Below, in pieces: positions 38,522 to 56,360 of a stretch of 64,000 nucleotides of DNA. The stretch is taken from positions 1,240,001 through 1,304,000 of the forward strand of contig NZ_JAHHDS010000003.1 of assembly GCF_019739195.1 (NCBI RefSeq), given 5' to 3'. The notes beneath the pieces are model-generated. The model did not search any database and was not told the DNA's origin. It was given only the letters and a program-made list of their open reading frames with translations. A program made the translations under genes and the position numbers. Each line of letters begins with the position of its first letter. The stretch's first letter is position 1. This stretch comes from Microcella sp. (GTDB lineage Bacteria; Actinomycetota; Actinomycetes; Actinomycetales; Microbacteriaceae).

Positions 38522-39910
38522 TTACACGGCTGCGTTTGGACCGAAGACTTCGAGCTGACGAAGCCATAGCCTGTTCGGGTATCGAGGCGATCCGCCACCT
38601 GCGGCCTGCACGATGTGTATCCCGATGGCGAGCATGCCGGGGAACTCCACAAATGTGTAGGGCCTCTCTTGCCCTGCCGCTTCATGAAGAACTACTTCAC
38701 GGCCTCCGTCAATCGACTCCACTTCGATTCGGAACACCTGGCTAGATTCATAGAAGTCGCCTCGCTCGCCCCAGTGGATCGCGATCTGACCAACGGCGCG
38801 AGGACCCGGAAAACGTATCGAAGCGGTCTGTGCACGTCCAGAGTCATCAGATGCCCATGCAGTCCGCAAATTGCCGTCTGTGAGCACAGGCGCCTCGTTC
38901 GTAAAGGGCTGCGCAACGACAACTGGGCCCATGAGGTGGGGTTGGAGGGCGTTGTCTGAACCTCGGTGCCACAATATCGGCGTAGCAATCTCGTCGACAG
39001 GGTGCGCAATCGGCACCGGTCCGCTCGGGTCGGTCAAGAAGTCGTTGCGCATGAGCAGCGACACGTGGGCGTAATACGACGGCAACTCGGTGCTGAAGAA
39101 GAAGTCGTCGTCTGTGCGCACTTCACCCGTGGCCGCGAAGGCCGCAGAGCGAGGACCACGGTTGACCGTGAGCTGGTCGAGACGCCCGGTGGCGAACGCG
39201 GTGTGAATGTCCCACGCGGAGCACGGCCGACCATCGATCTCGTAATCGCAGTCGAAGTCGGCATCCATGAGCACCCACGTGCCGGCCTCCTCGCACCACA
39301 CTTCGGCCACGACGTGCTCGTCGACGGGCGGGTCAGCGATGGCTTCATCGCCGATGCGGTACGAGTCCGCGATGCCGCGGTGAAGGTTCACCATGCGCGC
39401 CTGCATGCCGAGCGCCAGCGCGCACTGCACGAGCGAGACCGAGTAGTGAATGCAAATGAAGTGGTCGACGCCGGTGGATGCCCGATGCAAGATGAGCGAT
39501 GCGTTCCACTCGGGCATCCGCTCGGGGATGCCATGTTGCCATAGCGACTTCAGCCAAATGCGCAGCCGTCGTGCCTTCTCGACATCGCTACCCTCGCCCG
39601 CGACTGTTTCGAGGTCGTATCGCTCACGTAGCGACCGCAGCACGGGGTGCTCGGGGTTCTCGTAGGTGAACGGAATCGTTCCGAACCACTGTGTCTCGTG
39701 CGGCTCAGGCCGCGCATACACCGAGGAAACCTCTGCGACGTTCTGTGTGCCGAGAAAGCTCGACACCGAGGTGCGCGCACCGAACTCTCGCGCGAGGTTT
39801 ACGCGCGTGACTGGGGGCAACAACGGCAGTTCGGATGGTCGATCCATTCGCGTCAAGATCTCCCGCCGCCATTCGGCCAGCCGCTCGTACAAGTCTCGAT
39901 AGACGGTCAA
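38522..39910 (-). CDS. Transglutaminase-core protein with C-terminal discoidin-like domain
   Basis: 462 residues with no signal peptide. Residues about 120-240 form a transglutaminase-like cysteine-protease core: Cys in GVDHFICIHYSVSLVQCALALG, His in DEHVVAEVWCE and Asp in WVLMDADFDCDYE give a complete Cys-His-Asp triad. The C-terminal 120 residues (LRTAWASDDS, IRFPGPRAVGQIAIHWGERG, RIEVESIDGG) resemble an F5/8-type carbohydrate-binding jelly roll. It may hydrolyse or transfer an amide or peptide bond on a glycan-linked substrate. It is divergent from the AraC gene (230-bp gap) at the left end of the catabolic island. Exact family not recognised. Confidence 0.65.
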   Translation of the reverse strand: MTVYRDLYERLAEWRREILTRMDRPSELPLLPPVTRVNLAREFGARTSVSSFLGTQNVAEVSSVYARPEPHETQWFGTIPFTYENPEHPVLRSLRERYDLETVAGEGSDVEKARRLRIWLKSLWQHGIPERMPEWNASLILHRASTGVDHFICIHYSVSLVQCALALGMQARMVNLHRGIADSYRIGDEAIADPPVDEHVVAEVWCEEAGTWVLMDADFDCDYEIDGRPCSAWDIHTAFATGRLDQLTVNRGPRSAAFAATGEVRTDDDFFFSTELPSYYAHVSLLMRNDFLTDPSGPVPIAHPVDEIATPILWHRGSDNALQPHLMGPVVVAQPFTNEAPVLTDGNLRTAWASDDSGRAQTASIRFPGPRAVGQIAIHWGERGDFYESSQVFRIEVESIDGGREVVLHEAAGQERPYTFVEFPGMLAIGIHIVQAAGGGSPRYPNRLWLRQLEVFGPNAAV

Positions 39911-40098
39911 GGAAGCTGCATCCCCTCGCTCGGGTCATGGTCGCGCACCGCTCATCGGTGATCGCAATATTCGACCAGACTCGCGGCTTTCACGCTCCGC
40001 CACCATGCTGAATCCTGCGCTGCTGGAGTCGCGTCTTGCACACTTCTCCTTCAAGCGTTCCTTAGCCCATGCTGAGCCGAATCGGCGAGGATTCCTGT

Positions 40099-40107
40099 TG
40101 GTATGAT
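40099..40107 (+). promoter_or_regulatory. Extended minus-10 promoter of the AraC-type gene
   Basis: TGGTATGAT, an extended minus-10 element with no clear minus-35. It lies about 35 bases upstream of the GTG at 40141, which supports that start over the ATG at 40069 (which would lie upstream of the promoter). Confidence 0.5.
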
Positions 40108-40140
40108 CCAAGGCACCCGTGCCCTCCCGAGAGGTTCGCC

Positions 40141-41346
40141 GTGCTGACATCTTCATTGCTAGGCCCCTCTTCGACGAGCGTGCTGCGTCGGCTCGACGAA
40201 TTTGAGTTCGTGCAAGTCGTCGCCCTCGATCTCGACGACTACGAACAAATGCGGGCCGAGCAAGGTGAGGCCGAGCTCAGAGCCGTCGTCGACGCATTCG
40301 ATACCGTCGTCCGCTCGGTAGCGCACGCAGTCGCCGGTCCTAAAGCGGCAGTCGTCATTCCCATCGACCCCGACGCGTGGGTCGTCTCGTTCCATTCCCA
40401 TGACGCTCAAGAGTTGTCGCAGCTCGTCACGAGCTTCATCGAAGCGGTCGTTCCCGCCTCGACAGGTTCTTTGCTGACGGTCACGGCTGGCGTCGGCAAA
40501 GCTCGTTCGGGCGAAAGCAAGTTCGACATGAGTCTCAAGAGCGCCTTCCGCGCGATGGAGCGCAAGCTCGTCGAAGGGGGCAACTCGGTATATGAAGACC
40601 ACCCGGTGTTCTCCTCCGAAGCGGAGTTCGCCGCCTTGTCGCGAGCACGCGACCGATTCCAGAGCGAGTTGCTCGCGTGCATCAGAACCGCCGACGCCGA
40701 ACGCGCCGTACAAGCCGCAACTGGATGGATCGAGTTTGTGAGCGCCTCGTCGGGTAGCTCACCTGACCTCGTACGACAAGCGACGGTGGCCGCGATGATC
40801 TTCGTCGCCGACAATTCACTCGCCGCCGCTGACATCGGCGGTGAGGCCGAAGACCGCGTTCGCAAGAACCTTGAAGACTCGCGTCAGGCTTTCACCGAGC
40901 TAGGCATTTTGCTAGAGGCACACGATCTCTCGTATCTCACCTTGTGGCTGAGCTCATACTTGCGCCGCGTCATCTCGAAACACTCGAGTGACGAACGCTC
41001 ACCGCTCATGAACGCCGTCGAGACTTACCTGCGTCAGAATTACGCCTCTGCAGAGTTGCAGCTCTCGGACGTCGCGAAGGCCGTGCACGCAAGCCCGTTC
41101 TACATCAGCCACCTGTTTCAGCGAGAGATGCAGACGACCTTCCTCAAATACGTCACCAATCTTCGCACTGAGCACGGTCGACGACTGCTTGAGACGACCG
41201 ATCTGCCCATCGAGGTCATCGCACACGGTGTTGGCTACGGCTCAGCTCGTAGGTTCCGCGAGTTGTTCAAGAAGTCGACCGGCCTCTCGCCGCGGGAGTA
41301 TCGCGAGCGCATCGGTCGACCTGAACTCGACCTGCCCGAAGGGTGA
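40141..41346 (+). CDS. AraC-family regulator with degenerate GGDEF-like N-terminal domain
   Basis: 401 residues from the GTG at 40141, which has AGAGG about 6 bases upstream. Residues about 15-155 resemble a nucleotide-cyclase/GGDEF fold (VVALDLDDYEQMRAEQGEAEL, then SLLTVTAGVGKA and AFRAMERKLVEGGNSVY), but the GGDEF loop itself is replaced by PIDPDAWVV, so no cyclase activity is expected. A helical region follows. Residues about 300-395 are the AraC DNA-binding domain: LQLSDVAKAVHASPFYISHLFQ and the second helix-turn-helix ending in GYGSARRFRELFKKSTGLSP. It is the likely regulator of the island and converges on the operon end. Confidence 0.87.
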   Translation: MLTSSLLGPSSTSVLRRLDEFEFVQVVALDLDDYEQMRAEQGEAELRAVVDAFDTVVRSVAHAVAGPKAAVVIPIDPDAWVVSFHSHDAQELSQLVTSFIEAVVPASTGSLLTVTAGVGKARSGESKFDMSLKSAFRAMERKLVEGGNSVYEDHPVFSSEAEFAALSRARDRFQSELLACIRTADAERAVQAATGWIEFVSASSGSSPDLVRQATVAAMIFVADNSLAAADIGGEAEDRVRKNLEDSRQAFTELGILLEAHDLSYLTLWLSSYLRRVISKHSSDERSPLMNAVETYLRQNYASAELQLSDVAKAVHASPFYISHLFQREMQTTFLKYVTNLRTEHGRRLLETTDLPIEVIAHGVGYGSARRFRELFKKSTGLSPREYRERIGRPELDLPEG

Positions 41347-41381
41347 TGCCGGGGCGGCCACCGTCTTTCGCCCCGGCATCA
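41344..41381. terminator. Bidirectional stem-loop terminator of the catabolic operon
   Basis: TGATGCCGGGGC (41344-41355) pairs perfectly with GCCCCGGCATCA (41370-41381). It starts in the AraC stop codon and ends just before the FAH-family stop at 41383, so it can serve both converging genes. Confidence 0.75.
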
Positions 41382-41382
41382 G

Positions 41383-42240
41383 TCAGGAAGCGCGCAGCGC
41401 TTGATTGCGCAGAACGCCGATTCCCTGCACAGCCGCCGCCATGGTCTCGCCGTGCTCGACCGGCCCGATGCCCGAGGGCGTGCCGGTCGCGATAATGTCT
41501 CCCGGCTCGAGCGTCATGACTGACGACAGCAGTTCAATGAGGCGGCCAACGCCGAACACCATGTGCTTTGTGCTCGAGTCCTGCAACACGCGGTCGCCAA
41601 TGGACAGCGAGAGCGAGAGATTGCTGGGGTCGTCGATCGCGTCGGCAGTGGCGAGGTATGGCCCACAGGGCGAAAAGGTGTCGAACGCCTTAGTGAGATC
41701 CCACGGGTGGTTGCGATCCATCGCCTCGATTTGCAGGTCACGCGCCGTGATGTCGTTGACGATCGTGAAGCCTGCCACGTAATCGCGCCACTGCTCGGCC
41801 GTGACGTTGCGCGCCGAACGGCCGATGACGATTGCGAGCTCGACTTCGTAATCCACGCGCTTCGACTGGGGCGGCAACGCCACCGGGTGGTTGTGTGGCA
41901 CGAGCGACGACGGCGGCAAGAAGAACACGACCGGTTCGGTCGGTACTTCGAGGTTGCCTTCCGCCGCGTGGGCGGCATAGTTCAACGAGATGCCGATGAG
42001 CTTTTGAGGGTCTTGCACGGGCAGTTCGAAGTGCGCGTCGTCTTCGTGGGCAACGACATCGCCGGCGGCCTCTGCCTGTCGCACTCGCTCATCGAGCTGA
42101 GCACGAGGGACCGTGTTGAGAATGCTCACCAAATCGTTCTGGTCAGCAGCCACGGTGTCGGCGAGCGCCACCAGGTTTCCGTCGGCGATCCTGGCGACGG
42201 CAATGATGCCGGCGTCGGTGCGCACGCGAGCGAGTTGCAT
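41383..42240 (-). CDS. Fumarylacetoacetate hydrolase (FAH) family protein
   Basis: 285 residues from the ATG at 42240, with GGAAGGAAC upstream. Signature: LIGISLNYAAHAAEGN, VDYEVELAIVIGRSARNV with metal-binding Glu residues, YVAGFTIVNDITARDLQ and IIATGTPSGIG near the end. FAH enzymes cleave C-C bonds of 2,4-diketo or 2-keto acids. In non-phosphorylative L-rhamnose and L-fucose pathways an FAH enzyme splits 2,4-diketo-3-deoxy sugar acids. Here it is the last gene of the operon, next to an amidohydrolase (possible lactonase), which fits such a step. Specific substrate is inference. Confidence 0.85.
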   Translation of the reverse strand: MQLARVRTDAGIIAVARIADGNLVALADTVAADQNDLVSILNTVPRAQLDERVRQAEAAGDVVAHEDDAHFELPVQDPQKLIGISLNYAAHAAEGNLEVPTEPVVFFLPPSSLVPHNHPVALPPQSKRVDYEVELAIVIGRSARNVTAEQWRDYVAGFTIVNDITARDLQIEAMDRNHPWDLTKAFDTFSPCGPYLATADAIDDPSNLSLSLSIGDRVLQDSSTKHMVFGVGRLIELLSSVMTLEPGDIIATGTPSGIGPVEHGETMAAAVQGIGVLRNQALRAS

Positions 42241-42275
42241 GGTTGTTCCTTCCGTGGAGACGAGATTGGGGTGAG

Positions 42276-43823
42276 TCAGGTGGTCGGTGTCGGTGGTGTT
42301 GGGGAGAGAGCGAGCAGTCGAGCGGCATTGCCGACGAGCACGAGGTACTGGTCGTGCTGCGATAGATCGGCAGACTCGACACGGCCGCGGCTGTAGCGCG
42401 GGTCGATGAGGCACGAGTCGGTGCCGAAGAGCACTCGCTCGGCACCGAGCTCTCGCACGAGGGTCGACAACCACCGGCCGGTCAACCACGAGCCGCAGAT
42501 CTCTGCCATGAGATTAGGGTGTCGCTGCGCGACATCGATCGTGGCGCGAAAGCCGTCGGTGTTGGCGCCCGAGTGCCCGATGACCAAGCGTAGATCGGGG
42601 AACCGTTCTGCGACCGCACCGAATCGAGACGGATCGCTCCAGGGACTTCCTCCGAAGCCGTGCGAGAGCACGGGAGTGTTCGTCTCGACGGCAAGCTGCC
42701 AGATCCACCCATATCGTTCATCGTCGATTGGGCAGAGGTGAGTGTCGGGGTGCACTTTGATACCGCGCACGACGGGATCGGCGAGCTGGTCTCGCAGCAC
42801 CTCGGCGTGGTCGGTAAAGTGGGGGTTAGCCACGAGATGCACCGAGAGCGCTTCGGGATGCTGCCGTGCGGCGGCGATCGCTCGCTCGTTGCCGTGGCGA
42901 GCATCCACCCAGATGCCCTCGAGGTGCGAGATCACGCTGTGCACGATGCCGACGCGGGCGGCAGAATGCAGCACTGCCTCGTGAGTTATCGCGGGCATCC
43001 AACTCGAGGGCCAGGCTCCAATGTGGGCGTGGAAATCGATAGCTGGCGCCAGGTGCGTCGGAGCGCTCGGCACCGTGGAGTTGACGTCGTCAAGTCCGAG
43101 CAATCGCGCGGCCGTGTCGCCACCGACCAGTCGGCGTTCGTCGTCGCTGAGGTCAGAGTGCTCGAGCACGAACCACGGTGCACGGTGGTCTTTCGCCGGG
43201 GCTCCCGTTGCCATGACCACACGGTCGGCACCGTACCGTCGCACAAACCGCTCGATGCCATCGCTGCAAGCGAGGTACGAGAGATCGACGTGCACGCGCG
43301 GGTGAGCATCCATGACGGCGAAGGCCTGTCGAATCGTGCGATAGCCGAGACCAGTGACGATGACGTCGACGTCGGGTGCGCGCGAGCAGAGCTGATCGAT
43401 CGAGTTCCAATCGGTGTCGTCGAGCTCGATGAGAACGGGTAGCCCAGTTGCGCTCAGCAGCGCAGGCAGGCCGTCGGATTCGCGACCTGTCAGTGACCAA
43501 CCGTGTCGCCCAGGGCTCAACCAGAACGCTCGAGCACCCGCAGCGGCCAGATCACCTCCGAGGTCGGAGAGCTCTGCTGTGGCCCCCCAGTGTTCCGGGG
43601 TCAGCACAAACGAGGGCAGAACGCGAGGATGCTCTGCCGCAAGTGCCACGATGGCCGCGTTACCCTCGGGCGCGTTGTACAGCACGGAGGTGCTCGACCG
43701 AGCTACGACGACGTCGGCTTTCACGGCATCGAGATAGAGATCGACGTCGGCCGTCGACCACGCAGCGTGGTCGTCGGTCGGCCAGGCTCCGAGCGTGACC
43801 CACAAGTCGATGCGCAGGCTCAT
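42276..43823 (-). CDS. Tandem-duplicated amidohydrolase (amidohydrolase_2 family)
   Basis: 515 residues from the ATG at 43823. It holds two amidohydrolase-2 TIM-barrel halves. The C-terminal half (from about residue 262) has the full motif set: IDFHAHIGAW with HAH at 265-267, VKVHPDTHL-like RGIKVHPDTHLCP, LSHGFGG, LVIGHSGANTDGF and LFGTDSCLIDPRYSRG. The N-terminal half starts in the same way (MSLRIDLWVTLGAWPTDD) but lacks HxH and has VVMATGAPA where the catalytic Asp should be, so it is probably inactive. Single-domain relatives include lactonases (rhamnono- or fuconolactone) and decarboxylases. Its start overlaps the upstream stop (ATGA). Confidence 0.82.
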   Translation of the reverse strand: MSLRIDLWVTLGAWPTDDHAAWSTADVDLYLDAVKADVVVARSSTSVLYNAPEGNAAIVALAAEHPRVLPSFVLTPEHWGATAELSDLGGDLAAAGARAFWLSPGRHGWSLTGRESDGLPALLSATGLPVLIELDDTDWNSIDQLCSRAPDVDVIVTGLGYRTIRQAFAVMDAHPRVHVDLSYLACSDGIERFVRRYGADRVVMATGAPAKDHRAPWFVLEHSDLSDDERRLVGGDTAARLLGLDDVNSTVPSAPTHLAPAIDFHAHIGAWPSSWMPAITHEAVLHSAARVGIVHSVISHLEGIWVDARHGNERAIAAARQHPEALSVHLVANPHFTDHAEVLRDQLADPVVRGIKVHPDTHLCPIDDERYGWIWQLAVETNTPVLSHGFGGSPWSDPSRFGAVAERFPDLRLVIGHSGANTDGFRATIDVAQRHPNLMAEICGSWLTGRWLSTLVRELGAERVLFGTDSCLIDPRYSRGRVESADLSQHDQYLVLVGNAARLLALSPTPPTPTT

Positions 43824-46066
43824 GACGCACCCCCCGCCATGTCCCCGAGCAGGCCGGCGCGGCGGGCGCGCTCGAGGAAGGGCAAGTGCCCGCGCCACTC
43901 GGCGATGTCGTTACTGAGAGCCGGGCCCGAACCGCGCGGACGATACCAGCGGTCGCCGCCATCGAGTCCCGCGCGTAGGTAGTCGTCGTCAGCATCGTGA
44001 TCCCACGCCAGCGCGAGAGCTTCTCTGATGAGGGCTGACCGGTTGGCCCAGCGGTAGTCGAATCGACCGAGAAACACGAAGGTGCCGTCGGGATTACGGC
44101 CGGTCGTGATGAGCGCACGCGCACCGGCGATTGCTCCGTCGCGCGCTACGGCGTCGCCGGTCACTTCGGCGCCGCGCAACAGCCCCGAGATGAGAACCGC
44201 GTTCTGCCACGCGCAGTAATCGCGCAAGTGACCAAGCCGCATGAGCCACCGGCCGTCGGCCGACTGGGCGCTGAGGGCCAGTTCGCTGATGTCGCGAATC
44301 GCGGCGATGACGCGTGGTTCGTGATCGAGTCGTGCGAGTGCGGAGAGAGCGAGCAACGGCCACCCTGCGTTGCGTGGGCCCGGTTGCGGTCTGGTCCAGC
44401 CGAGTTCGTGCAGACGCAGGATGCACTCGCCGACCCCGCGCGCGGCCTCGAGGTAACGCTCGTCTCCCGTGAGCTGGCCCAACAGCACGAGACCCTCTGT
44501 CCACATGTGGCCCGTATCGATGCTTGTGAGCACCTGCCCGTTCACGGTGTGGGCGGCTACACGGTGCACGTGTGCGCGACCGTGGGCGCGCAAGCCCCCG
44601 ACCTCGGCAGCAAACTGCGAGCTGCTGTGAATGCGATCGATGTCGATGAGGTGATCGGCGTAGGCCTTGGCCGACTCGAAGTAGGCGCGCTCGCCCGAGC
44701 GCAGGTACTGCAGCACGAGAGCGAGCAGAGCGTCGTGCTCATTATTGGCGCTGTATCCGGTGCGCGGCCCCGTGGTGATTCCTTGCACACCGTCGCCGTA
44801 GTCATGGAATCCGAGCGACTGACCTGACTGGTACCAGCTGAATAGTTCTTCGCGAATGTGCGATTCGAGCATCGGGCGCGCGGCGGCGTCGAGAGCGAGC
44901 ACCTCGTAGACGTCAAATCGACGTGCGGCAAGGCCGGGGTGGGGCACAAGCGGCATGTCGAGCCGCTCTCCCGCCGTCGAGTCGATGCCGGCGGTCACCG
45001 AGACAGTCATGGTCTTCGCCGACCCCTCGGTCATGATGAGCGGTGCCGCGCTTTCAGGCCAGAACGCGACGGTCACGCCTTCGTGGTCGACGCGGATCTC
45101 GCCGGGATGATTCTCGGTGAAGCGCTGCACCGCCACCGTGATGGGGTGTTCAGAATGCGCAGAAACCCAATTGGTCGGCGTGATGCCCTGCAGCTCTGAC
45201 CATTCCCACGAAGACCAGTAGTCATCGGCACCCGCGAACTGCCAGGCGGTGCCTCCTTCGAGTTGGGCGACGGCAAACACTCCGCGAGCGTGCCCGACCC
45301 CGTTCGCGCGAATCGTGGCAGGAACCTGACCGCGATACACAGCATCGAAAGCACCGCAGGTGAGCTCCGAAACCGGCTCGCCTTGTACCTGCAAAGCCCA
45401 GTGCGTTAGCTCTGCGTCATCGCTCGAGCCCGACGCATTGATGAGTTGCAGCTGCACCGTCGCGGTCGACTGGCTCGCCGCCGCAGAGATCTTCGCGCGG
45501 AATCGCCAGCCCGTCGGCCTCTGTGACTCGTCGACAAAGTCACCCGAGATGGTGAGCTCGGCGAGAAGAGGCCCCTCGTGGTGCACCACGACCGTGGAGG
45601 GATCAACGAGAGCCCACGCGCTCGAGCCGTCGGGCATCCCGATCGACGACGACACCGTGCGTCGGCCGACCTCGGAGCCCTCGATGACCAGTAGCGAGTC
45701 GCCCGTCGACACACTGAACTGCGGGTGATGAAGAACGACCTTCTCTGTCAACGCCGTCGTCGAGACAGCGGCACCGTGGTCGGGAGCCGTCGCAGAGTCG
45801 AGCGCTGTGACGGAGATAGCGGTGGCACCGCGAGCACCCACCGACACCGGCACGGCGATGACGGCCTCACGAATCCAGCCGTCGCTGTCGCGACTCGCTG
45901 CCAACGGCTGCACAGGCAATGGCGCGCCGTCAGCGGTGGCGGCCGCGAAAGCTGAGAGCTCGCGCGCGACTGCAGTCGCGACGGGGAAGGTGAGTCGAAC
46001 GAGCTCGTGAGCACGAGCAAGCCCGATCTCCTCCACGACGCTGAAGTCGGCGACGAACGATGTCAT
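43820..46066 (-). CDS. PcRGLX/YetA-like glycan lyase-type enzyme
   Basis: 748 residues from the ATG at 46066, which overlaps the permease stop (ATGA). The N-terminal 400 residues are a beta-rich RIFT-barrel-type domain (ELVRLTFPVATAVARELSAF at the start). The C-terminal half is an (alpha/alpha) toroid: GYSANNEHDALLALVLQYLR, AYFESAKAYADHLIDID and HMWTEGLVLLGQLTGDERYLE are the pattern of exo-rhamnogalacturonan lyase PcRGLX (PL26) and B. subtilis YetA. There is no signal peptide, so it would act in the cytoplasm on imported oligosaccharides. A glycoside hydrolase of the same fold cannot be excluded. Confidence 0.6.
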   Translation of the reverse strand: MTSFVADFSVVEEIGLARAHELVRLTFPVATAVARELSAFAAATADGAPLPVQPLAASRDSDGWIREAVIAVPVSVGARGATAISVTALDSATAPDHGAAVSTTALTEKVVLHHPQFSVSTGDSLLVIEGSEVGRRTVSSSIGMPDGSSAWALVDPSTVVVHHEGPLLAELTISGDFVDESQRPTGWRFRAKISAAASQSTATVQLQLINASGSSDDAELTHWALQVQGEPVSELTCGAFDAVYRGQVPATIRANGVGHARGVFAVAQLEGGTAWQFAGADDYWSSWEWSELQGITPTNWVSAHSEHPITVAVQRFTENHPGEIRVDHEGVTVAFWPESAAPLIMTEGSAKTMTVSVTAGIDSTAGERLDMPLVPHPGLAARRFDVYEVLALDAAARPMLESHIREELFSWYQSGQSLGFHDYGDGVQGITTGPRTGYSANNEHDALLALVLQYLRSGERAYFESAKAYADHLIDIDRIHSSSQFAAEVGGLRAHGRAHVHRVAAHTVNGQVLTSIDTGHMWTEGLVLLGQLTGDERYLEAARGVGECILRLHELGWTRPQPGPRNAGWPLLALSALARLDHEPRVIAAIRDISELALSAQSADGRWLMRLGHLRDYCAWQNAVLISGLLRGAEVTGDAVARDGAIAGARALITTGRNPDGTFVFLGRFDYRWANRSALIREALALAWDHDADDDYLRAGLDGGDRWYRPRGSGPALSNDIAEWRGHLPFLERARRAGLLGDMAGGAS

Positions 46067-46965
46067 CCCTTGATGCCCCCGATCGCGACGCCCTTCGCGA
46101 TGCGCTCTTGCAAGATCGAGAAGAGGATGAGCATCGGGATCATCGTGATGACGAGGCCGGCGAAGAGCTGCACCCACATCGCGCTATAGGTGGCGTTGAC
46201 CGAGAGACCGAGAATACCTACCGGAATGGTCCACGCCGAGGGGTCAGAGAGCAACACGAGCGCAAAGAAGAACTCGTTCCAGATTGTCAGCGTGTTGAGC
46301 AGAGCGACACTCGCGAGTGCCGGAACCATCTGCGGCACGACCACCGAGAAGAATGTACGGAACGAGCTGGCTCCGTCGAGCGCCGCGGCCTCTTCGAGTT
46401 CCATAGGCAACGACGAGAAGAAGCTCGTCAACAAGTAGACGCTGAATGGAATCTGGATCGCGATGTACACGAGGATGAGGCCGTTGAGTGAGCCGAGAAG
46501 GCCGAGGTTTCCTAGGAGTGCGTAGAGCGGGATGATGACGAGGAACGGCGGCATCATGAGCCCGAAGAGGAAGACGAGTCGCGTGAGCTCGCGGCCGCGG
46601 AACGAGATGGTCGCGAGAACGTACGCGGCCATGGCCGCGATGATGAGACTCACCGTCACGCTCACCGCCGTCACGTAGAAGCTATTCACGAAGAACTGGC
46701 CGATCTTGGCGCCGTTCCACGCGTCGGCAAAGTTGCTGAACTGCGGCTCGCTCGGGGGCTGCCACGGGCTCGTGGAGAAGAACTCTGGGTTGGTCTTAAG
46801 CGAGACCATCACCGTCCACGCGAACGCCGCAGCCGACGTCAAGCAGTACATCACCAGCACGAGGTGCAGGCCGATGCGACCGCCGGTCGTGCGAGCAGGC
46901 TTGCGGCGCACCGGTCGCTGGCGAGCGATGAAGTCGGCGGTGGCGAGGGGGCTGTTGGTCGACAT
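46063..46965 (-). CDS. Carbohydrate ABC transporter permease (MalG/CUT1 type)
   Basis: 300 residues with six predicted membrane helices. The ATPase-docking loop is EEAAALDGASSFRTFFSVVVP, the EAA motif of CUT1 permeases. It is the second permease of the importer; its ATG shares one base with the upstream permease stop and its own stop overlaps the next start, so the operon is tightly coupled. Substrate is expected to be an oligosaccharide or sugar acid. Confidence 0.93.
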   Translation of the reverse strand: MSTNSPLATADFIARQRPVRRKPARTTGGRIGLHLVLVMYCLTSAAAFAWTVMVSLKTNPEFFSTSPWQPPSEPQFSNFADAWNGAKIGQFFVNSFYVTAVSVTVSLIIAAMAAYVLATISFRGRELTRLVFLFGLMMPPFLVIIPLYALLGNLGLLGSLNGLILVYIAIQIPFSVYLLTSFFSSLPMELEEAAALDGASSFRTFFSVVVPQMVPALASVALLNTLTIWNEFFFALVLLSDPSAWTIPVGILGLSVNATYSAMWVQLFAGLVITMIPMLILFSILQERIAKGVAIGGIKG

Positions 46966-47870: not shown

Positions 47871-47907
47871 GCTCTCCGGTCTCCTCGTCAGCGTCTCGTC
47901 GGGGTGC

Positions 47908-47942: not shown

Positions 47943-47951
47943 GGTCTGGTG

Positions 47952-49286: not shown

Positions 49287-49331
49287 CGGTGTCTCCTTTC
49301 GATGCAATACGGGATAGATGTGCCCTGGTCT

Positions 49332-50342
49332 TTAGGATGACGCGGTGCCTATCATGCGTACGGGCTGACCCGTGCGGCACGACTCGTCGATGGCGACCAG
49401 CACCTCTGTGACGTGCACCGAAGAGTCCACGGTGACGAGCGCGGGTCGATCGTCGACGACGGCGTCGATGAAGTCATGAATCGCCATTGCCACCGAACCG
49501 GTGAGCTTGCCGTCGATGTTCGAGAGCAACTGGTTGCGGGGGTAACGAAAGGCATCGTTCGTCGCTATCTCGATCTGCTCTGTGACCCGATCGAGTCGAA
49601 TCGTGCCCTCCGTGAAAATGAGCTCGATGAACGAGTCAGTCATCGTCGGAAAGGTGTTTGGCAGGATCCAGCATGCCTCGAGGGTGATGACCCCGCCGCC
49701 CGCGAGTTTGAGCTGGGCGTGCACCGCATCGGGAGTCTCGACTCCGCGATCGCGCAGCACCCCCCACACGGCGGTGGCATACACCTCGACGACTCGATCC
49801 TGAAAGCACCAGAGCACGAGGTCGAGGTCGTGGCTCGAGAGAAAGAACGAGGGTGTTGTGCGGTCGGCCCAGTCGATCATCTCGGTGGGTACGTAGATGG
49901 TGTCGTTCTTGCGCGCGTAGGCGAGCACGGGCGCACCCAACTGGCTGTCGCGACTCAAGGCACGCGCTTGCGAGTAGGCGGGGACCCAGCGGTGGTTGAA
50001 GAGGGTGGTAGCCACGACGCCCGCATCACGAGCGGCATCGCGGATACGCCGCGCATCGTCAGCGGTCGTGGCAAGCGGCTTCTCGATGAGCACGTGCTTG
50101 CCCGCGGCCGCTGCTCGAACGGCAAGTTCGGCGTGCGCGAAGTCCGGGGTGGCGATGATGACCGCGTCGAGCTCGTCAAGCGCAAGCAGGGCGTCTGCTG
50201 TCATGACGGGCGCTTCGACAGGCAGATCAGTGGGAGTGCCGCGGCTGCCCCAGGCCAGCAATTCACTGCGGTGGTAGGCGTCGACGATCTGCGCGTGCTG
50301 ACGCGCCATGATCCCGGTTCCGATAACGCCGACCTTAAGCAC
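49332..50342 (-). CDS. Gfo/Idh/MocA family oxidoreductase
   Basis: 336 residues from the GTG at 50342, with GAAAGGG 6 bases upstream. The N-terminal Rossmann domain has VGVIGTGIMARQH; ATPDFAHAELAVRAAAAGKHVLIEKPLATT contains the EKP motif (87-89) with the catalytic Lys. The C-terminal domain carries HDLDLVLWCF. Members oxidise or epimerise sugars, inositols or their acids with NAD(P). It is the first gene of the seven-gene catabolic operon, so it probably acts on the imported sugar. An 11-bp-arm palindrome lies between its start and the divergent aminotransferase. Confidence 0.9.
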   Translation of the reverse strand: MLKVGVIGTGIMARQHAQIVDAYHRSELLAWGSRGTPTDLPVEAPVMTADALLALDELDAVIIATPDFAHAELAVRAAAAGKHVLIEKPLATTADDARRIRDAARDAGVVATTLFNHRWVPAYSQARALSRDSQLGAPVLAYARKNDTIYVPTEMIDWADRTTPSFFLSSHDLDLVLWCFQDRVVEVYATAVWGVLRDRGVETPDAVHAQLKLAGGGVITLEACWILPNTFPTMTDSFIELIFTEGTIRLDRVTEQIEIATNDAFRYPRNQLLSNIDGKLTGSVAMAIHDFIDAVVDDRPALVTVDSSVHVTEVLVAIDESCRTGQPVRMIGTASS

Positions 50343-50356
50343 GATGACCCTTTCGC

Positions 50357-50383
50357 TCGATACCTCCCAGCTGGAGGTTTCGA
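50357..50383. promoter_or_regulatory. Operator-like palindrome in the divergent control region
   Basis: TCGATACCTCC (50357-50367), five bases, GGAGGTTTCGA (50373-50383): arms match at ten of eleven positions. It lies 15 bases upstream of the oxidoreductase start, in the 209-bp divergent gap 50343-50551. A second smaller inverted repeat, GCTCGG/CCGAGC, is at 50507-50523. Either a repressor operator or an mRNA hairpin near the ribosome site. Confidence 0.55.
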
Positions 50384-50551
50384 TAACAGTAGGCGACAGT
50401 TTCGTGGCCGGGAGAGGACAAAACGTGCGCACCCCGAACCGCATCTTGCACACTGTGCCGCTGCTCTGGCCCCCGCCGGATGATGTGATTGAGGATGGGC
50501 GAAACAGCTCGGCAGCACCGAGCAGCACCCGCTTGTCTGACAGGAGCGAAC

Positions 50552-51865
50552 GTGAATGCACTGAAGTTGTCCGACTTTCCCATCGGCGCGAGCCTCGCCG
50601 CCCGCGCATCTCAGGTGCTCGCCGGCGGAGTGTCGAGCGATGCTCGCCGAGGCATGCCCCTACCCGTGTACATGAGTCACGGCAGCGGCAGCCATCTCAC
50701 CGATGTCGACGGGCACGACTATGTCGATTTTGTGCTCGGCCAGGGGCCGCTCGTGCTCGGCCACAGTGCGCCAGCGATCGTTGACGCCGTGTCGACGCAA
50801 GTCGCGCTCGGCCAAACGTACGCAGGCCAGCACGCCCTCGAAGTCGATGCGGCCGAGTTGGTTGCCGAACTCGTGCCCTGCGCCGAGCTCGTGCGCTTCA
50901 ACACGGTGGGGTCTGAAGCCGCCCTCGGCGCGTGGCGCATCGCTCGCGGCTACACGGGTCGCTCGAAGGTCTTGAAGTTCGAGGGTCACTATCACGGCTG
51001 GCTTGACCCGGCCCTCTTCAGCCTGCACCCTGCACTCGAGCTCGCGGGCCCTGCCGATACGCCGCACGTGGTGCCCGGTACTGGTGGTCAGCAGATGTCG
51101 GGAGGCTTCGATCTCGTCATCGCGCCGTGGAACGACCTGGGCGCGCTCACCTCGCTGCTCGTCAAGCACCACGACGACATCGCCGCGATCGTGCTCGAGC
51201 CGCTGCTCTGCAACACCGGATGCATCTCTCCAGCCCCCGGCTTCCTCGAGGCCGTGCGGGCATTGTGCGACGAGTACGGCATCGTGCTGATCTTCGATGA
51301 AGTCATCACGGGCTTCCGCCTCGCGCCCGGTGGCGCGCAAGAGTACTTCGGCGTCACGCCCGACCTCGCCGTCTTCGGTAAGGCGATCGCGGGCGGTATT
51401 CCTGTGGCCGCTATTGCCGGCTCAGCGAAGGTCATGGGGGTGGTCGCAGGCGGCACGGTCTCACACGCCGGCACGTTCAACAGCAACCCGGTGGGTATGG
51501 CCGCGACGGTCGCCACACTCACGCACCTACGTGATCACCGCGATGAGGTCTACTCCCACATGCAGTCGCTCGGCGGCATGTTGATGCAGGGCATCCGCGA
51601 GCGCGCTCAAGCGGCAGGGGTCGACGTGCTCGTCGACGGGCCCGGTCAGGTGTTCCAGACCTACTTCACCTCAGAGCCCGCGGTTCGCAACTACCGCGAC
51701 TTCGCCCAGACCGATCTGCCGCTCGGACGCCGCTTCCACGGCGAATTGCTGAGCCGAGGGGTCAACATCGTTCCGCGAGGCTTGTGGTTCTTGTCGGCCG
51801 CCCACAGCGTCGCCGATGTCGAGCACGCGCTCGACGCGGTCGAGCAGGCGTTCGCGGCGCTCTAG
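50552..51865 (+). CDS. Class III PLP aminotransferase (glutamate-1-semialdehyde aminomutase-like)
   Basis: 437 residues from the GTG at 50552, with CAGGAG 6 bases upstream. FEGHYHGW (143-150), the PLP phosphate region around NTVGSEAA, DEVITGFR (249-256) and VFGKAIAGG with the PLP Lys277 are the HemL-type pattern. In a catabolic island it is more likely a transaminase or aminomutase for an amino-sugar or beta-amino acid product than the heme enzyme. It diverges from the oxidoreductase operon and shares its control region. Confidence 0.85.
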   Translation: MNALKLSDFPIGASLAARASQVLAGGVSSDARRGMPLPVYMSHGSGSHLTDVDGHDYVDFVLGQGPLVLGHSAPAIVDAVSTQVALGQTYAGQHALEVDAAELVAELVPCAELVRFNTVGSEAALGAWRIARGYTGRSKVLKFEGHYHGWLDPALFSLHPALELAGPADTPHVVPGTGGQQMSGGFDLVIAPWNDLGALTSLLVKHHDDIAAIVLEPLLCNTGCISPAPGFLEAVRALCDEYGIVLIFDEVITGFRLAPGGAQEYFGVTPDLAVFGKAIAGGIPVAAIAGSAKVMGVVAGGTVSHAGTFNSNPVGMAATVATLTHLRDHRDEVYSHMQSLGGMLMQGIRERAQAAGVDVLVDGPGQVFQTYFTSEPAVRNYRDFAQTDLPLGRRFHGELLSRGVNIVPRGLWFLSAAHSVADVEHALDAVEQAFAAL

Positions 51866-51884
51866 GCACCGTCGCCCCCACCCG

Positions 51885-52232
51885 ATGCCGACGATGATGA
51901 CGGCTGATCCGAAGGATGCTCCGGCACCGCTGCCCGCGGTCTTCCGAGCCCTGGCCCACGCCGAGCGCCTGCACATCATGTCGCTCTTCGTCGCGGCCAA
52001 TGCTCACGACCCTGGCGCGTGCCTGTCAATTACGCAGGTCGCCGAGCTGGCAGAGGTCTCACGGTTTTGCGCCTCGCGTCACCTCGCGATCTTGCGTGAA
52101 GCGGGCTTTCTCACTGCACAGCGCGACGGCAACTTCGCGCTGCACGCACTCTCGCCGGTGGCCCCGGATCAAATCGACGAGTGGATCTCTCCGCTGCTCG
52201 AAACGACGGAGCGCTTGCACGCTCGGCTCTGA
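51885..52232 (+). CDS. ArsR-like winged-helix regulator
   Basis: 115 residues from the ATG at 51885 (an ATG at 51897 is possible). VFRALAHAERLHIMSLFVAAN starts the domain, and the recognition helix is ITQVAELAEVSRFCASRHLAILREAGFL. No ArsR metal-site cysteine pair is present. It begins 19 bp after the aminotransferase stop, so the two are probably one transcript, and it may sense an intermediate of the pathway. A 6-bp hairpin (52250-52265) follows. Confidence 0.8.
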   Translation: MPTMMTADPKDAPAPLPAVFRALAHAERLHIMSLFVAANAHDPGACLSITQVAELAEVSRFCASRHLAILREAGFLTAQRDGNFALHALSPVAPDQIDEWISPLLETTERLHARL

Positions 52233-52249
52233 GGCGGGGCCTCGCGACC

Positions 52250-52265
52250 GAGCGCGCAAGCGCTC
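52250..52265. terminator. Short hairpin between converging genes
   Basis: GAGCGC and GCGCTC pair around a GCAA tetraloop, 18 bases after the ArsR-like stop and just before the stop of the secreted BNR protein gene. Weak terminator candidate without a U-tract. Confidence 0.4.
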
Positions 52266-52277
52266 CTGCTGCTCTCG

Positions 52278-53639
52278 TTAGTCGACCTCCACCGTCGTGA
52301 AGAGCAGGCTTGTGTAGGGCGAGCTCGTGCCGCTCGCCGACGCCGCCATGATCATCGAAAACACTTCCGACCCCTGGGAGTGGAAGGTGCCTGACTCAGG
52401 GCGCAACAGGTTCGGCGAGTAGATGTCACCGAAGCCCGAGATGTCGAACGACTCGTCGGTCCAGCCGCCGCCCGAATTGTCGCGCAGCATGACCAGGTCG
52501 TTGCTCATTCCGGCGAACTCGTGGCCGAACACGAACTTCTCACCGGTTCCGACGCCCGCTATTTGCGAGTGGTTGTCGTACGGCCCCAAGTCGGTCGGGC
52601 TGCCCGTGAGCGTAACGCTGCCGGCTGATCCCTTCCAGTAGTACAGGTGCGGTTCGTCGTTCGTCAGCGTGAAGTAGAGAACATGCGGCACGTTGTTCGA
52701 GTCGATGACAAGGTCAGCGGCATCACACCAGTTCTCGTCGTCGGGCGACGGACACGAGGCCACCATGAACGCGCTCCACGTGGCTCCGCCGTCGGCGCTG
52801 CGCCAGAGCTGGACACCAAAGTTCGAGGTGCTCGAGATGCCGACGTAGTTCTGGGTGAAGAGCATCCACACCTCACCGGCACTTGTTCCGGGCCGCACTC
52901 GTGGATAGAGGTAGGCCTCTTGTGGGCTCGAACCGGGGGTTGCGATCGAACTGGTCGTCTCGGTGTTGTTCCACGTGTCGAAAGTGCTGAACTTCAGGCC
53001 CCATCCGTTCACCGAGTACGCGTGGTAGATGTATCGACGGTTGGGGTCGATCGCGAGGCCACCATAATATCGTTCGGCCGTCGTCGTTCTGATGGAGTGA
53101 TCGTTCCAACTCGAGAAGTTGAACGAGCCGTCACCGAGCTTCGAGGTGAACTGCAAGCGCTGCAGGTAGACGTACTGATTCGAGCCGCCCGAGAGCGTGG
53201 TGACACCGGGGTAGCACTCGCCCCCGGTGAAGCACGGCACATACAGCCAGAGACGGTTGCCTGAATCGAGAATCAGTCCGGGCGCTTGATAGACGCGTGA
53301 ACCGAGTGTCTGCGCAAGGGTCCAAGTCTCACCATCGCTCGACTTCCAGATGCGCGCGAGCCAGGGGTACGACGTGCCGCTGCCGTCCAACGTGACTGTG
53401 TAGTACCAGCTGCCGTCGTAGACGATCTTCGGCGTTTGCGGGCCCCACGTTGGGGTCACATTCGTGGACCCGATCGTAGAACTGATTGTGTCGGTGGTCT
53501 CGACCGACGCCGCGTGCGCGGCTGACGGAGAGATCGTCACTGCCAGGGCAATCGCGGCGACCAGCGCCTGTGCCCGGAGCAGTACGACTGCCACGCGTCG
53601 GCGCATCGGCCGAGGGTGACGCTCGATCACACACTTCAT
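52278..53639 (-). CDS. Secreted BNR/Asp-box propeller protein
   Basis: 453 residues from the ATG at 53639, chosen because GAGGAA is 5 bases upstream (an ATG at 53651 overlaps that site). The Sec signal ends in PSAAHA (cleavage after residue 43). The mature part is a beta-propeller with Asp boxes WKSSDGETWT and WRSADGGATWS and the repeated YGGLAIDPNRRYIYHAY-type strands. Such folds occur in sialidases and in several polysaccharide lyases (PL24/PL25-type). No catalytic residues can be named with confidence. It probably acts outside the cell on the polymer whose fragments the ABC importer takes up. Confidence 0.7.
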   Translation of the reverse strand: MKCVIERHPRPMRRRVAVVLLRAQALVAAIALAVTISPSAAHAASVETTDTISSTIGSTNVTPTWGPQTPKIVYDGSWYYTVTLDGSGTSYPWLARIWKSSDGETWTLAQTLGSRVYQAPGLILDSGNRLWLYVPCFTGGECYPGVTTLSGGSNQYVYLQRLQFTSKLGDGSFNFSSWNDHSIRTTTAERYYGGLAIDPNRRYIYHAYSVNGWGLKFSTFDTWNNTETTSSIATPGSSPQEAYLYPRVRPGTSAGEVWMLFTQNYVGISSTSNFGVQLWRSADGGATWSAFMVASCPSPDDENWCDAADLVIDSNNVPHVLYFTLTNDEPHLYYWKGSAGSVTLTGSPTDLGPYDNHSQIAGVGTGEKFVFGHEFAGMSNDLVMLRDNSGGGWTDESFDISGFGDIYSPNLLRPESGTFHSQGSEVFSMIMAASASGTSSPYTSLLFTTVEVD

Positions 53640-53819
53640 TGTGTTCCTCATGGTTTCAGCGTCCCACCGAACTTCTCAGTCGCGACGGGCGAATTCCTGC
53701 CTACTGTGCCCGAGAACTTGCGAGGCCCAGTTTGCGCAATCATCTCCCGACTACGCTCGCGCTCGTGAAGCACATTCCTCGGGACAAAAGGCCGAAGTTC
53801 CCGCCTGTCGCCAAGAGCC

Positions 53820-54983
53820 ATGAACCGTGACCTGAACGACATCCGCGCGATGATCGCGTCGTCTTGCCGTCGCGAGGAGCGGCACCTCCGCGAATTGAGT
53901 CTGAGCATTCACCGGGAGCCAGAACTCGCCTTCCAAGAACGTCGGGCGTCCGGGTTGATTGCTGACTATCTCGAGCAACGCGGCTGGCACGTCGAACGGG
54001 GTTGGCTCGGCCTGGAAACGGCGCTGCGCGCAAGTGTTGGAGAGGGTAGACACATCGCCCTCTGCGCAGAATATGACGCACTCCCAGAGATCGGGCACGG
54101 ATGCGGCCACCACCTGATCGCGGCGATGAGCATAGGCGCTGCTATCGCGCTAGGAGAGCTTGCGAGCGAGCTCGGTGTGCGTGTGTCATTGTTTGGCACT
54201 CCGGCCGAAGAGCATGGGGGCGGCAAGATTGCGCTGCTCGACCGTGGAGCGTGGGATGACGTCGACGTCACGGGACTGGTGCACCCATGGGCAGCACCAT
54301 ACGATCGATCAGCAGAGTACGTAATGATGTCTGCGGTGGCTCGGTGGTCTGTCGAGTTCCGCGGGCGGTCCAGTCATGCTGCGGCGAGCCCTGAAGAAGG
54401 CGTGAACGCTTCCGATGCGGCCACCATTGCTTCGGTCGCATTCGGCTTGCTTCGCCAGCAGACCGGGCCCGACGTGCGGTTCAACGCGAACGTGGTGAGT
54501 GTCGGCACTGAGTCGAACATCATTCCCGACCGTTCTCACATGACTGTCGAGGCCCGTTCTGTGAGCGGCGTGCAGCTCTCTGCCCTGCAATCGCGATTGC
54601 GCGCTTGCTTGGAGGGAGCCGCGATCGCCACCGGATGCTCGCTAGCCGTGGAGGATGCCGAAGTTCCCTACCGCGAGCTGCGTCAGGATCCGATTCTCGC
54701 GCAGTTCTGGGATGCCGAGCTCTCGCACCTCGGCCGCGACGTCCGCGCCGAGCAGCACCCGGGCGGTTCGACCGACATGGGTGACGTCTCGCATACCGTT
54801 CGTACACTCCATGCGTACCTAGCGATTCCTGGCGATGTCGTCGTCTCGCATACTGCGGACTTCGCACAGCACTCGGCGAGCGAGGTGGCCCTTGAGACCA
54901 TGATTCTCGGTGCCCAGGTGCTCGCCTCGACGTTCGCGGCAGACGCACTGCACCACCGCACACTGCAGGCGGGGCAATCATGA
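53820..54983 (+). CDS. M20 family metallopeptidase/amidohydrolase (AbgB/ACY1L2-like)
   Basis: 387 residues. EYDALPEIGHGCGHH (84-98) holds the first metal ligands, GTPAEEHGGG (127-135) the catalytic Glu pair, His155 a further ligand, and HSASEVALETM at the C-terminus the last. The dimerisation domain lies between (SAEYVMMSAVARWSVEFRGRSSHAA). The closest named relatives are p-aminobenzoyl-glutamate hydrolase subunits and ACY1L2, which cut amide bonds of N-acyl or dipeptide-like compounds. Its stop overlaps the start of the serine ammonia-lyase gene (ATGA), so the amide product may contain serine. Confidence 0.87.
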   Translation: MNRDLNDIRAMIASSCRREERHLRELSLSIHREPELAFQERRASGLIADYLEQRGWHVERGWLGLETALRASVGEGRHIALCAEYDALPEIGHGCGHHLIAAMSIGAAIALGELASELGVRVSLFGTPAEEHGGGKIALLDRGAWDDVDVTGLVHPWAAPYDRSAEYVMMSAVARWSVEFRGRSSHAAASPEEGVNASDAATIASVAFGLLRQQTGPDVRFNANVVSVGTESNIIPDRSHMTVEARSVSGVQLSALQSRLRACLEGAAIATGCSLAVEDAEVPYRELRQDPILAQFWDAELSHLGRDVRAEQHPGGSTDMGDVSHTVRTLHAYLAIPGDVVVSHTADFAQHSASEVALETMILGAQVLASTFAADALHHRTLQAGQS

Positions 54984-56341
54984 GCCCGGCTGGCGATTAC
55001 ACGTCAGCGCTCGACTTGTTCTCGATCGGCATCGGACCATCCAGCTCTCACACTGTCGGCCCGATGCGCGCTGCCCGGAGCTTTCGCAGCGAGCTAGAAC
55101 TCCATGGTCTACTTCGAACCTCGATTACCATCGAGTGCACGCTCGGCGGCTCGCTCGGCGCGACGGGCGTCGGGCACGGCACACCCGCTGCCGTGCTGGC
55201 CGGCCTGGATGGACTCGAACCCGAAACGTGCGATCCCGAGGCCCTGGTCGCACGGTGGGAGTGCCTCGCAGACGATCCAACGTCTCCTCTACAGGGTGGC
55301 GGAGCGCTCATCGGTCGGAGCAGCATCCGTCTTGAGCCGGCATGGCGCCACCCTGAACACCCGAACTGCATGCGGCTCACCGCCCGAGATGGCTCGACAG
55401 TCGTGCATGAGCGGGTATTTCTGTCAGTAGGTGGCGGCTTCATCAGGGAAGCGGGAACCACAACCTCCACTTCGGTTGAGACGGCGGTCGTGTTCCCGAT
55501 GAGGTGCTTCGACGACGTGCTGTCGCACGCAGCACAGAGAGGCCTGACCATCACGCAGCTCGCCATGGCCAATGAAGTGGCACGAGGCCTCAGTCCCTCC
55601 GAAGTAGATGCCGCACTCGCGTCGATTTGGAACGCAATGGATGCGTCGATCGAACGTGGACTCGCTACCAGTGGGGTGCTGCCCGGTCGCCTGAAAGTTC
55701 CCCGCAGGGCGGCCGACGCTCGTGCCGTACTTGACGAACGCGCCGCGCTCGACTCGGAGGAGTGGCTCACGGTCTATGCAATGGCCGTGAACGAGGAGAA
55801 CGCTGCCGGCTCTCGAGTCGTCACGGCTCCGACGAACGGTGCAGCCGGTATCGTGCCGGCCGTGCTCAAGGACGTGCAGCGAAGGTGGGGGCCGCTGGCG
55901 CCGGAATCCGTTCGAACCTACCTGCTGACTGCGACGGTGGTGGGGCACGTCATCAAGCGCAACGCCTCGATCTCTGGTGCCGAAGTGGGGTGTCAGGGAG
56001 AAGTCGGGTCGGCATGTGCCATGGCGGCTGCTGGACTCACTAGCTTGCACGGAGGCACACCCGAGCAGGTCGAGAATGCAGCCGAGATCGCGCTGGAGCA
56101 CCATCTTGGGCTCACGTGTGACCCAGTGGGCGGCCTCGTGCAGATTCCGTGCATCGAGCGCAATGGAATAGCCGCCGCGACCGCGCGAACCGCGTCACGG
56201 CTTGCCTTGCTCGGCAACGGTGGCCATTCTGTAAGCCTCGACGTGGCAATTGAGACGCTTCGATCGACTGGCGCCGATATGAGCCACCGCTACAAGGAGA
56301 CGAGCCTTGCCGGTCTCGCCGTCAACGTGGTCGAGTGCTGA
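54980..56341 (+). CDS. sdaA: L-serine ammonia-lyase (iron-sulfur type, single chain)
   Basis: 453 residues. The beta domain opens with [22 protein letters not shown] (residues 14-35), and the alpha domain has [17 protein letters not shown] (near 337-353) and [18 protein letters not shown] (near 378-395), which carry the cysteines of the [4Fe-4S] cluster. It deaminates L-serine to pyruvate. It is translationally coupled to the M20 enzyme. By eye the codon use in this pair is less GC-biased than in the flanking genes, and the next gene is ordinary chromosome, so this is the right end of the island. Confidence 0.95.
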
Positions 56342-56360
56342 CTTTCGCGAACGGGGGAGG

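Follow-up and report, generated by a model that had tools for sequence, protein, structure and literature searches.

What does an 18,015-bp block of thirteen genes, absent from the sister genomes of its host, allow that host to use? The DNA analysed here, called the window throughout, is a stretch of 64,000 nucleotides from Microcella sp. (assembly GCF_019739195.1, contig NZ_JAHHDS010000003.1, positions 1,240,001-1,304,000 of the forward strand; G000:C3:1240001-1304000 in our numbering of this 2.88-Mb genome), and coordinates below are those of the window. An initial annotation had described positions 38522 to 56341 as an accessory catabolic island for a glycan or sugar acid, with thirteen genes of given families acting as one coherent unit. 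We read the island as a probable locus for glycan catabolism whose core is unusual. Our explanation, to which we give a probability of roughly one half, is that the block is a horizontally acquired locus of the polysaccharide-utilisation type, serving an acidic, uronate-containing heteroglycan.

All thirteen genes are present in the families assigned to them, with corrections concerning one regulator, the enzyme here called X, the amidohydrolase and a predicted fold. Bit scores are for Pfam or NCBIfam models, and identities refer to syntenic loci in other actinomycetes:

38331-56345, no strand: the whole insertion, 18,015 bp, not in congeners
38522-39910, minus strand: TG, transglutaminase-core protein with a discoidin-like C terminus (PF01841, 25.4 bits, cut-off 23)
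40069-41346, plus strand: AraC-family regulator (PF12833, 78 bits)
41383-42240, minus strand: FAH-family hydrolase (PF01557, 214 bits)
42276-43823, minus strand: AH, fused amidohydrolase couple (PF04909, Amidohydro_2, 142 bits, two stretches)
43820-46066, minus strand: X, PcRGLX/GH127-like probable intracellular enzyme (no library match; relatives match GH127_cat and PcRGLX weakly)
46063-46965, minus strand: permease B of an ATP-binding cassette (ABC) importer (PF00528; 66-74% identity)
46965-47870, minus strand: permease A of the importer (PF00528; 61-69% identity)
47952-49307, minus strand: solute-binding protein (SBP) of the importer (PF01547, 117 bits; 50-63% identity)
49332-50345, minus strand: Gfo/Idh/MocA dehydrogenase (PF01408 and C-terminal models; 62-67% identity)
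50489-51865, plus strand: AT, class III aminotransferase of a HemL-like clade (PF00202, 199 bits)
52278-53651, minus strand: propeller protein, probable glycan lyase (fold model; one weak BNR repeat)
53820-54983, plus strand: M20 amidohydrolase (TIGR01891, 180.2 bits, above its cut-off of 153.75)
54980-56341, plus strand: iron-sulfur L-serine ammonia-lyase (TIGR00720, 514.1 bits, above its cut-off of 345.1)

A minus-strand run leads from 50345 downward through Gfo/Idh, SBP, the two permeases, X, AH and FAH, with AT divergent from the Gfo/Idh gene, and the M20 and serine lyase genes overlap by 4 bases. The importer, an SBP_bac_1 protein with two BPD_transp_1 permeases, classifies as CUT1-type; no ATPase is encoded among the thirteen genes, and it would be supplied from elsewhere in the genome. 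The C terminus of TG scores 17.5 bits against F5_F8_type_C, under the cut-off of 28.2. Two regulators had been claimed for the island. Only AraC lies inside; the second was probably the ArsR gene at 56361-56846, which is outside the insertion, in DNA common with congeners. The claim that the island holds no kinase or aldolase is supported.

Is the block a single piece of DNA? The thirteen genes (38522-56341) lie in one sharp-edged block, whose edges were mapped by blastn of six congener stretches (L042-L047) against the window. In L042-L044, homology stops at 38330 and restarts at 56346, with a 3-base overlap; in L045-L047, it stops at 38328 and restarts at 56358-56407. In congeners, the sequence up to 38330 is directly joined to that from 56346 on. 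The spacing from the left flank to TrkH, calculated by hand from match coordinates, is 564-754 bp in 24 of the 25 other genus genomes, against 18,586 bp in the window; the 25th, G793, gave no proper match to the flank. The insertion is present in one of the 26 genus genomes searched, with G793 undetermined, which bears out the accessory character first proposed. The G+C content at third codon positions (GC3) averages 0.77 over the thirteen genes and 0.875 over fifteen hand-picked flanking open reading frames (ORFs) (Mann-Whitney p 2.8e-5), and the GC content is 63.5% in island genes against 68% in the flanks; GC3 is lowest (0.70-0.73) in AraC, TG, M20, and the serine lyase. Searches for X found it in a single genome each time, our own, among 398 of the family, the Microbacteriaceae, and among 396 of the order (the latter at E <= 1e-20), so that gain is far likelier than repeated loss. 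The thirteen genes were inserted as one piece, a horizontally acquired block of foreign composition.

No tRNA or Rfam family is found close to the insertion edges, and no integrase among the scanned genes. Just inside the left edge, at 38368-38399, stand four head-to-tail copies of CGATTCAC, possibly a scar of the insertion event. To the left of the insertion, some 500 bases (37818-38330) are conserved at the DNA level in several congeners, at 82-87% over parts, and the neighbouring gene in those congeners is only 71-75% identical; this segment matches no Rfam family at the gathering score.

Does the same set of genes occur elsewhere? The initial annotation had proposed looking for the gene order in other Microbacteriaceae; it was found instead in Dactylosporangium and in genus g360 of family f96. 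When X was used in a pattern-based scan of named genomes, it led to Dactylosporangium fulvum and D. sucinum, both of which carry AT and then Gfo-SBP-PermA-PermB-X-AH-FAH in the order of the island, with the propeller (41%) and AraC also present and TG (56%) 5-6 kb farther on. The double amidohydrolase, searched against the whole class, gave matches in 23 of 394 genomes, our own included. Of the 22 others, 15 contributed stretches to the comparison, with flanks for seven, and one further stretch was taken from our own genome. Seven of these 15 genomes carry X, all belonging to g360, and their loci keep the same order, with identities of 50-52% for X, 67-69% for AT and 64-67% for Gfo; farther along lie AraC, TG, and a second propeller closer to that of the window (56-59% in all seven). 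In one of them, G839, AT is truncated by a contig end. X is absent from the compared stretch in the other eight (G868, G898, G905, G910, G919, G942, G965, G989), and seven matched genomes were left out of the comparison (G380, G847, G912, G935, G973, G980, G1121). Among these two lists are five further g360 genomes, namely G868, G905 and G919 in the first and G912 and G980 in the second.

Eleven of the thirteen island genes are found together in all nine X-bearing loci (two from Dactylosporangium and seven from g360), ten of them in island order, while the propeller sits on the opposite side of the core. Their identities range from 36 to 74%, with X at 50-52%, TG at 55-60%, AraC at 36-39%, FAH at 52-54%, and AT at 65-69%. 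The gene set is thus not a private assembly; it is conserved in other actinomycetes. The idea of one coherent unit is upheld by these nine genomes, and independent scattering in relatives, which would speak against it, is not seen for eleven of the thirteen genes. The remaining two are M20 and the serine lyase. Within the stretches compared, M20 occurs in none of the nine loci, its matches in the two Dactylosporangium genomes being weak and no higher than 47 bits, and the serine lyase in one, that of D. sucinum (50% identity), 83 bases before the matched start of a DegT aminotransferase. The four ORFs upstream of the D. sucinum gene, including a CHAT protein and an alcohol dehydrogenase, contain no glycine-cleavage gene.

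The loci of these relatives are also larger. They add an enolase-superfamily dehydratase, the DegT aminotransferase, another exported propeller-like protein, a second amidohydrolase couple, a second Gfo, a GntR regulator, a KdgD-like DHDPS enzyme (229 bits, under the cut-off of 278), and a protein with a sub-threshold match to polysaccharide deacetylase. A creatininase is present in all nine, and a nitrilase-like enzyme follows FAH in all seven g360 loci by weak match, with the frame read in one. The island is a reduced version of this larger conserved locus, with its own M20-serine lyase pair.

Wider searches returned more partial likenesses. X matched 7 of 396 genomes in a phylum search, our own included, and the other six match its N-terminal part only (up to position 187). 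Relatives of AT are found in 103 plasmid records, with other gene contexts in the two examined (L016, L017), and a plasmid search with the propeller gave no match. A plasmid of the haloarchaeon Halomontanus rarus (L014, 10196-21363) carries a cluster of two long amidohydrolase-family proteins (541 and 562 amino acids), an MR/MLE protein, class III and DegT aminotransferases, and a carbon-nitrogen hydrolase. In Nonomuraea gerenzanensis (L013, 3053-16656), a related locus has two DegT genes, propeller-like proteins, and importer permeases, and its amidohydrolase halves are overlapping separate genes.

What, then, does the core do? The most telling loci are three sister loci, L103, L104, and L105, from genera g360 and g384, in which a heparinase II/III protein stands between Gfo and AH, that is, in the slot of X. 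The heparinase II/III assignment comes from PF16889 and PF07940 in L103 and L104, and the L105 protein is 64% identical to that of L104. Gfo (48-52%), FAH (46-49%), AT (57-60%), AraC (25-26%), the AH couple, and the importer permeases are all there, and TG, M20, and the serine lyase were not found in the 19.5-kb stretches of these loci. The core is common to X-type and heparinase-type loci. Since X and heparinase II/III are exchanged beside it, the core most likely makes pyruvate from a uronate-type product, with neither kinase nor aldolase. The uronic nature of the glycan, already suspected in the initial annotation, is favoured by this exchange and by the propeller fold described below.

The amidohydrolase, at first described as duplicated, does have two halves, fused in a single gene. 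At the position of the HxH motif of active enzymes, the N-terminal half has D-x-(N/W)-V, whereas the C-terminal half keeps HxH, in all ten X-type loci. In all nine relatives the two halves are read in a single frame free of stops, joined by linkers of 75-474 nt; the three sister loci have them as separate genes. AH has no PDB sequence match at E <= 1e-5. FAH (41383) reaches 188.8 of the 500 bits set for NF053535, the L-2,4-diketo-3-deoxyrhamnonate hydrolase model, and so does not belong to that equivalog; it is probably a C-C hydrolase of a 2,4-diketo acid. For AT, a PDB profile search ranks glutamate-1-semialdehyde (GSA) aminomutases first; it falls short of TIGR00713, glutamate-1-semialdehyde aminomutase (378.1 against 527.3 bits), and nearly reaches the broader subfamily model NF000818 (383.2 against 398 bits). 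AT is among the most conserved genes, in both types of locus. The Gfo/Idh protein scores 110 of 355 bits for IolG, and inositol catabolism was dropped on this ground; a mycothiol reading was also considered and dropped.

X, with a probable start at 46066, is harder to place. Neither Pfam (E <= 10) nor NCBIfam (E <= 1) holds a family that matches it. The PcRGLX domain models, too, give no match at E <= 10, let alone one above their curated cut-off, and PF07944, for glycoside hydrolase family 127 (GH127), is not matched (cut-off 24.9 bits; a relative in L003 scores 15.8). Among the ten members of the family of X, its own included, GH127_cat appears in six, PcRGLX_2nd in four and PcRGLX_3rd in one, all weakly. 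A relative in Lachnospira eligens, 23.5% identical to X over residues 309-665 and annotated as GH127-type, scores above the cut-off for GH127_cat and just below it for the PcRGLX domains. By these profiles, X is a distant cousin of PcRGLX and GH127, and not a member of either by their criteria. The PcRGLX/YetA likeness first assigned to it therefore holds as a distant relation, not as a match of its own. The "pectin-type lyase fold" was a loose description. A single-sequence model of low quality (predicted local distance difference test, pLDDT, 37) looks strand-rich in its N part and helical in its C part, as in an alpha/alpha toroid. PDB sequence searches with X gave weak short matches only, among them YteR and a six-hairpin glycosidase, and a search with the relative in L005 gave no convincing match. 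By eye, X has no signal peptide and is probably intracellular. Extensin arabinosides were dropped as a substrate, the GH127 relation being too weak.

The propeller (52278-53651) has an N-terminal export signal by eye. It had been called a BNR propeller, and it is predicted to be a propeller protein, with one weak BNR repeat and a fold near the rhamnose-glucuronate and ulvan lyases. The model, built from three sequences, is of low confidence (pLDDT 56.6, predicted TM-score 0.61). Its nearest folds are a putative neuraminidase, BACINT_00347, BACCELL_00856, BT3686, and FoRham1 (Z about 22-24); the best rows of the seven-bladed PL42/GH145 type have Z 23-24 over 325-352 residues, with a root-mean-square deviation of 3.6-3.8. 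Lectins and CylK come next (Z 21-23), then a PL25 ulvan lyase (PL, polysaccharide lyase) at Z 19.5, and PL24 was also found in another PDB fold comparison. A viral fold library returned other propeller-like proteins. No BNR_4 (PF15892) Pfam match was found in six members at E <= 10, nor any PDB sequence match to PL42/GH145-type enzymes. According to PMC8377490, FoRham1 is a rhamnose-alpha-1,4-glucuronate lyase and BT3686 acts on the same bond, GH145 is renamed PL42, and His85, His105 and Arg166 are important in FoRham1. The propeller is probably a glycan lyase, with lyase activity suggested by the modelled fold.

How might these parts work together? We propose that the exported propeller would cut the polymer outside the cell, probably at a sugar-uronate bond by beta-elimination, and that SBP and the two permeases, with an ATPase encoded elsewhere, would import the oligosaccharides. 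X would cut these inside the cell, freeing a uronate-type unit, which Gfo/Idh would oxidise; the AH couple would open a lactone or cyclic ester, and FAH would split a 2,4-diketo acid into pyruvate and a C3 fragment. Because of this last cleavage, no kinase or aldolase would be needed. The role of AT would be to transfer nitrogen to or from a keto or aldehyde intermediate. M20 and the serine lyase, a pair added in this lineage, would free L-serine and turn it into pyruvate, and AraC would sense an intermediate. The best evidence that X, too, would release a uronate-type unit to the four-enzyme core is its exchange with heparinase II/III. Export, import, intracellular cutting, oxidation, lactone opening, and FAH cleavage are read from protein families; what the glycan is, what AT does, and where serine comes from (an amide or the C3 fragment) are guesses. 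The enolase-superfamily dehydratase and the KdgD-like enzyme of the larger loci, usual in oxidative sugar-acid routes, count in favour of the proposal.

Several points weigh against it. The substrates of all island enzymes are predicted from families, and none of the curated specific families is matched by X, by the propeller, or by the AH couple taken as one unit. A full 2,4-diketo route would also require a dehydratase and a 4-dehydrogenase, neither of which the island encodes, and M20 and the serine lyase have only a loose place in it. Agreement in X and AH among the nine syntenic loci comes by selection, since the loci were recruited via one or the other of these genes. On the propeller model, lectins and CylK reach Z 21-23, within 1-2 units of the enzymes, and one of the near folds, BACCELL_00856, is described in PMC8377490 as lacking hydrolytic activity.

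It is tempting to go further and propose that the core, made of Gfo/Idh, the AH pseudo-enzyme/enzyme couple, FAH and the HemL-type AT, is an undescribed route, free of kinase and aldolase, from lyase-released uronate to two pyruvates. The uronate would be oxidised to a 2,4-diketo acid, which FAH would split into pyruvate and a C3 hydroxy-oxo acid; this would be transaminated to serine, from which the serine lyase would make the second pyruvate, and different glycan-cutting enzymes, X or heparinase II/III, would be plugged into the same core. We hold this extension to be rather improbable.

The nitrogen-handling genes suggest other explanations. A nitrogen theme, with changing types of amidase and two families of aminotransferase, appears to recur across lineages, judging from the families. 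The initial annotation had proposed an amidated or seryl polymer. If the glycan were a uronic acid polymer amidated with serine or another amino acid, TG and M20 would split the amide, the serine lyase would give pyruvate, and the other enzymes would handle the sugar acid. The overlap of the M20 and serine lyase genes, the D. sucinum serine lyase placed before DegT with no glycine-cleavage gene in the four upstream ORFs, and the presence of creatininase and TG in nine of nine loci and of the weakly matched nitrilase-like enzyme in seven agree with this. However, conservation is lowest for M20 (0/9) and the serine lyase (1/9), and a second serine lyase, 54% identical and of native composition, lies elsewhere in the host genome. 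Amide hydrolases of the families in the island have many small-molecule substrates, which also counts against it. An amidated polymer is not established, and we consider it unlikely.

Alternatively, the glycan may contain an amino sugar, either an N-acylated amino-uronate or a 4-amino-6-deoxy sugar, which the amidases would deacylate and from which class III and DegT aminotransferases would remove the nitrogen. The conservation of AT in both types of locus is in line with this, as are the deacetylase-like match in the larger loci and the DegT enzymes of the Dactylosporangium, g360, and Halomontanus loci, whose nearest models are 4-amino-sugar transaminases, all under cut-off. Yet the island itself has no DegT, no amino-sugar-specific carbohydrate-active enzyme was recognised, and the known substrates of HemL-clade enzymes are aldehydes and beta- or gamma-keto acids, not sugars. 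This, too, seems improbable to us.

The propeller fold suggests a third alternative, in which the locus would serve on plant arabinogalactan or rhamnogalacturonan debris. The propeller would remove rhamnose from Rha-GlcA caps, X would act on rhamnose-uronate oligosaccharides, and the rhamnose would be burned via another locus. The nearness of the low-confidence model to BT3686-type proteins, FoRham1, and ulvan lyases speaks for it, as do the relation of X to PcRGLX and a second catabolic region of low GC3 in the same genome. Nevertheless, the sequence matches expected of such a propeller are missing (BNR_4 in six members, PDB), and the aminotransferase and the amidases are left unexplained; we find this alternative quite doubtful. 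The second region, at about 818-845 kb of C3 (L123, L124, L125), has several MR/MLE genes, a FAH gene, and an ABC importer; genes resembling those for fuconolactonase and mutarotase were also recognised there by eye.

Finally, a chance gathering of unrelated pathway genes, for which one could cite the lowest GC3 of AraC, TG, M20, and the serine lyase and the lack of a partner for M20 in other loci, is extremely unlikely, being contradicted for eleven genes by the nine other genomes, while a single insertion carries all thirteen.

Two features elsewhere in the window were noticed: a 3228-amino-acid open frame at 18460-28146, whose N terminus resembles an export signal, and, at 10103-10200, an ARAGORN tRNA prediction, probably false, that has no proper anticodon and falls within a long open frame.

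If the block is a uronate-type glycan locus, why does it matter? A movable catabolic block is delimited here nearly to the base and tied to a larger conserved actinomycete locus, so that a single substrate experiment would shed light on many genomes. X, the fused AH couple, and the propeller, none of which falls into a curated specific family among those searched, are candidate members of new carbohydrate-active families, and the X/heparinase II/III exchange makes a common downstream route for lyase products directly testable. No account of the gene set appeared in the literature searched (open-licence papers, few terms), and the view that no such locus had been described stands uncontradicted by that narrow search.

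How does the island compare with known systems? The heparinase sister loci share with it Gfo, the AH couple, FAH, AT, the importer permeases, and AraC, and differ in having heparinase II/III instead of X and the AH halves as separate genes. The non-phosphorylative L-rhamnose/L-fucose pathway reaches pyruvate through a dehydrogenase, an amidohydrolase-type lactonase, and a FAH hydrolase, with no kinase or aldolase. The island has that enzyme series; in contrast, its FAH has 189 of 500 bits, a dehydratase and a 4-dehydrogenase would lie outside it (nine MR_MLE matches occur elsewhere in the genome), and an aminotransferase is added. With PcRGLX/PL26 and YetA, X would share the order of a beta-rich part followed by an alpha/alpha toroid, as modelled, and its relatives have weak PcRGLX matches, at E 0.05 or worse; X itself is unmatched, lacks a signal peptide by eye, and has other neighbours. 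The link to GH127 beta-L-arabinofuranosidases runs through those six family members, the best at E 0.0011, and through the Lachnospira relative, similar to X over part of its length, whereas X is unmatched. The propeller, lastly, would have, by its low-confidence model, the fold of PL42 (formerly GH145), PL24, and PL25, which are at the top of both PDB comparisons, and is exported, judging by its signal; it differs from them in sequence, with about 8-14% identity and no Pfam BNR_4 match.

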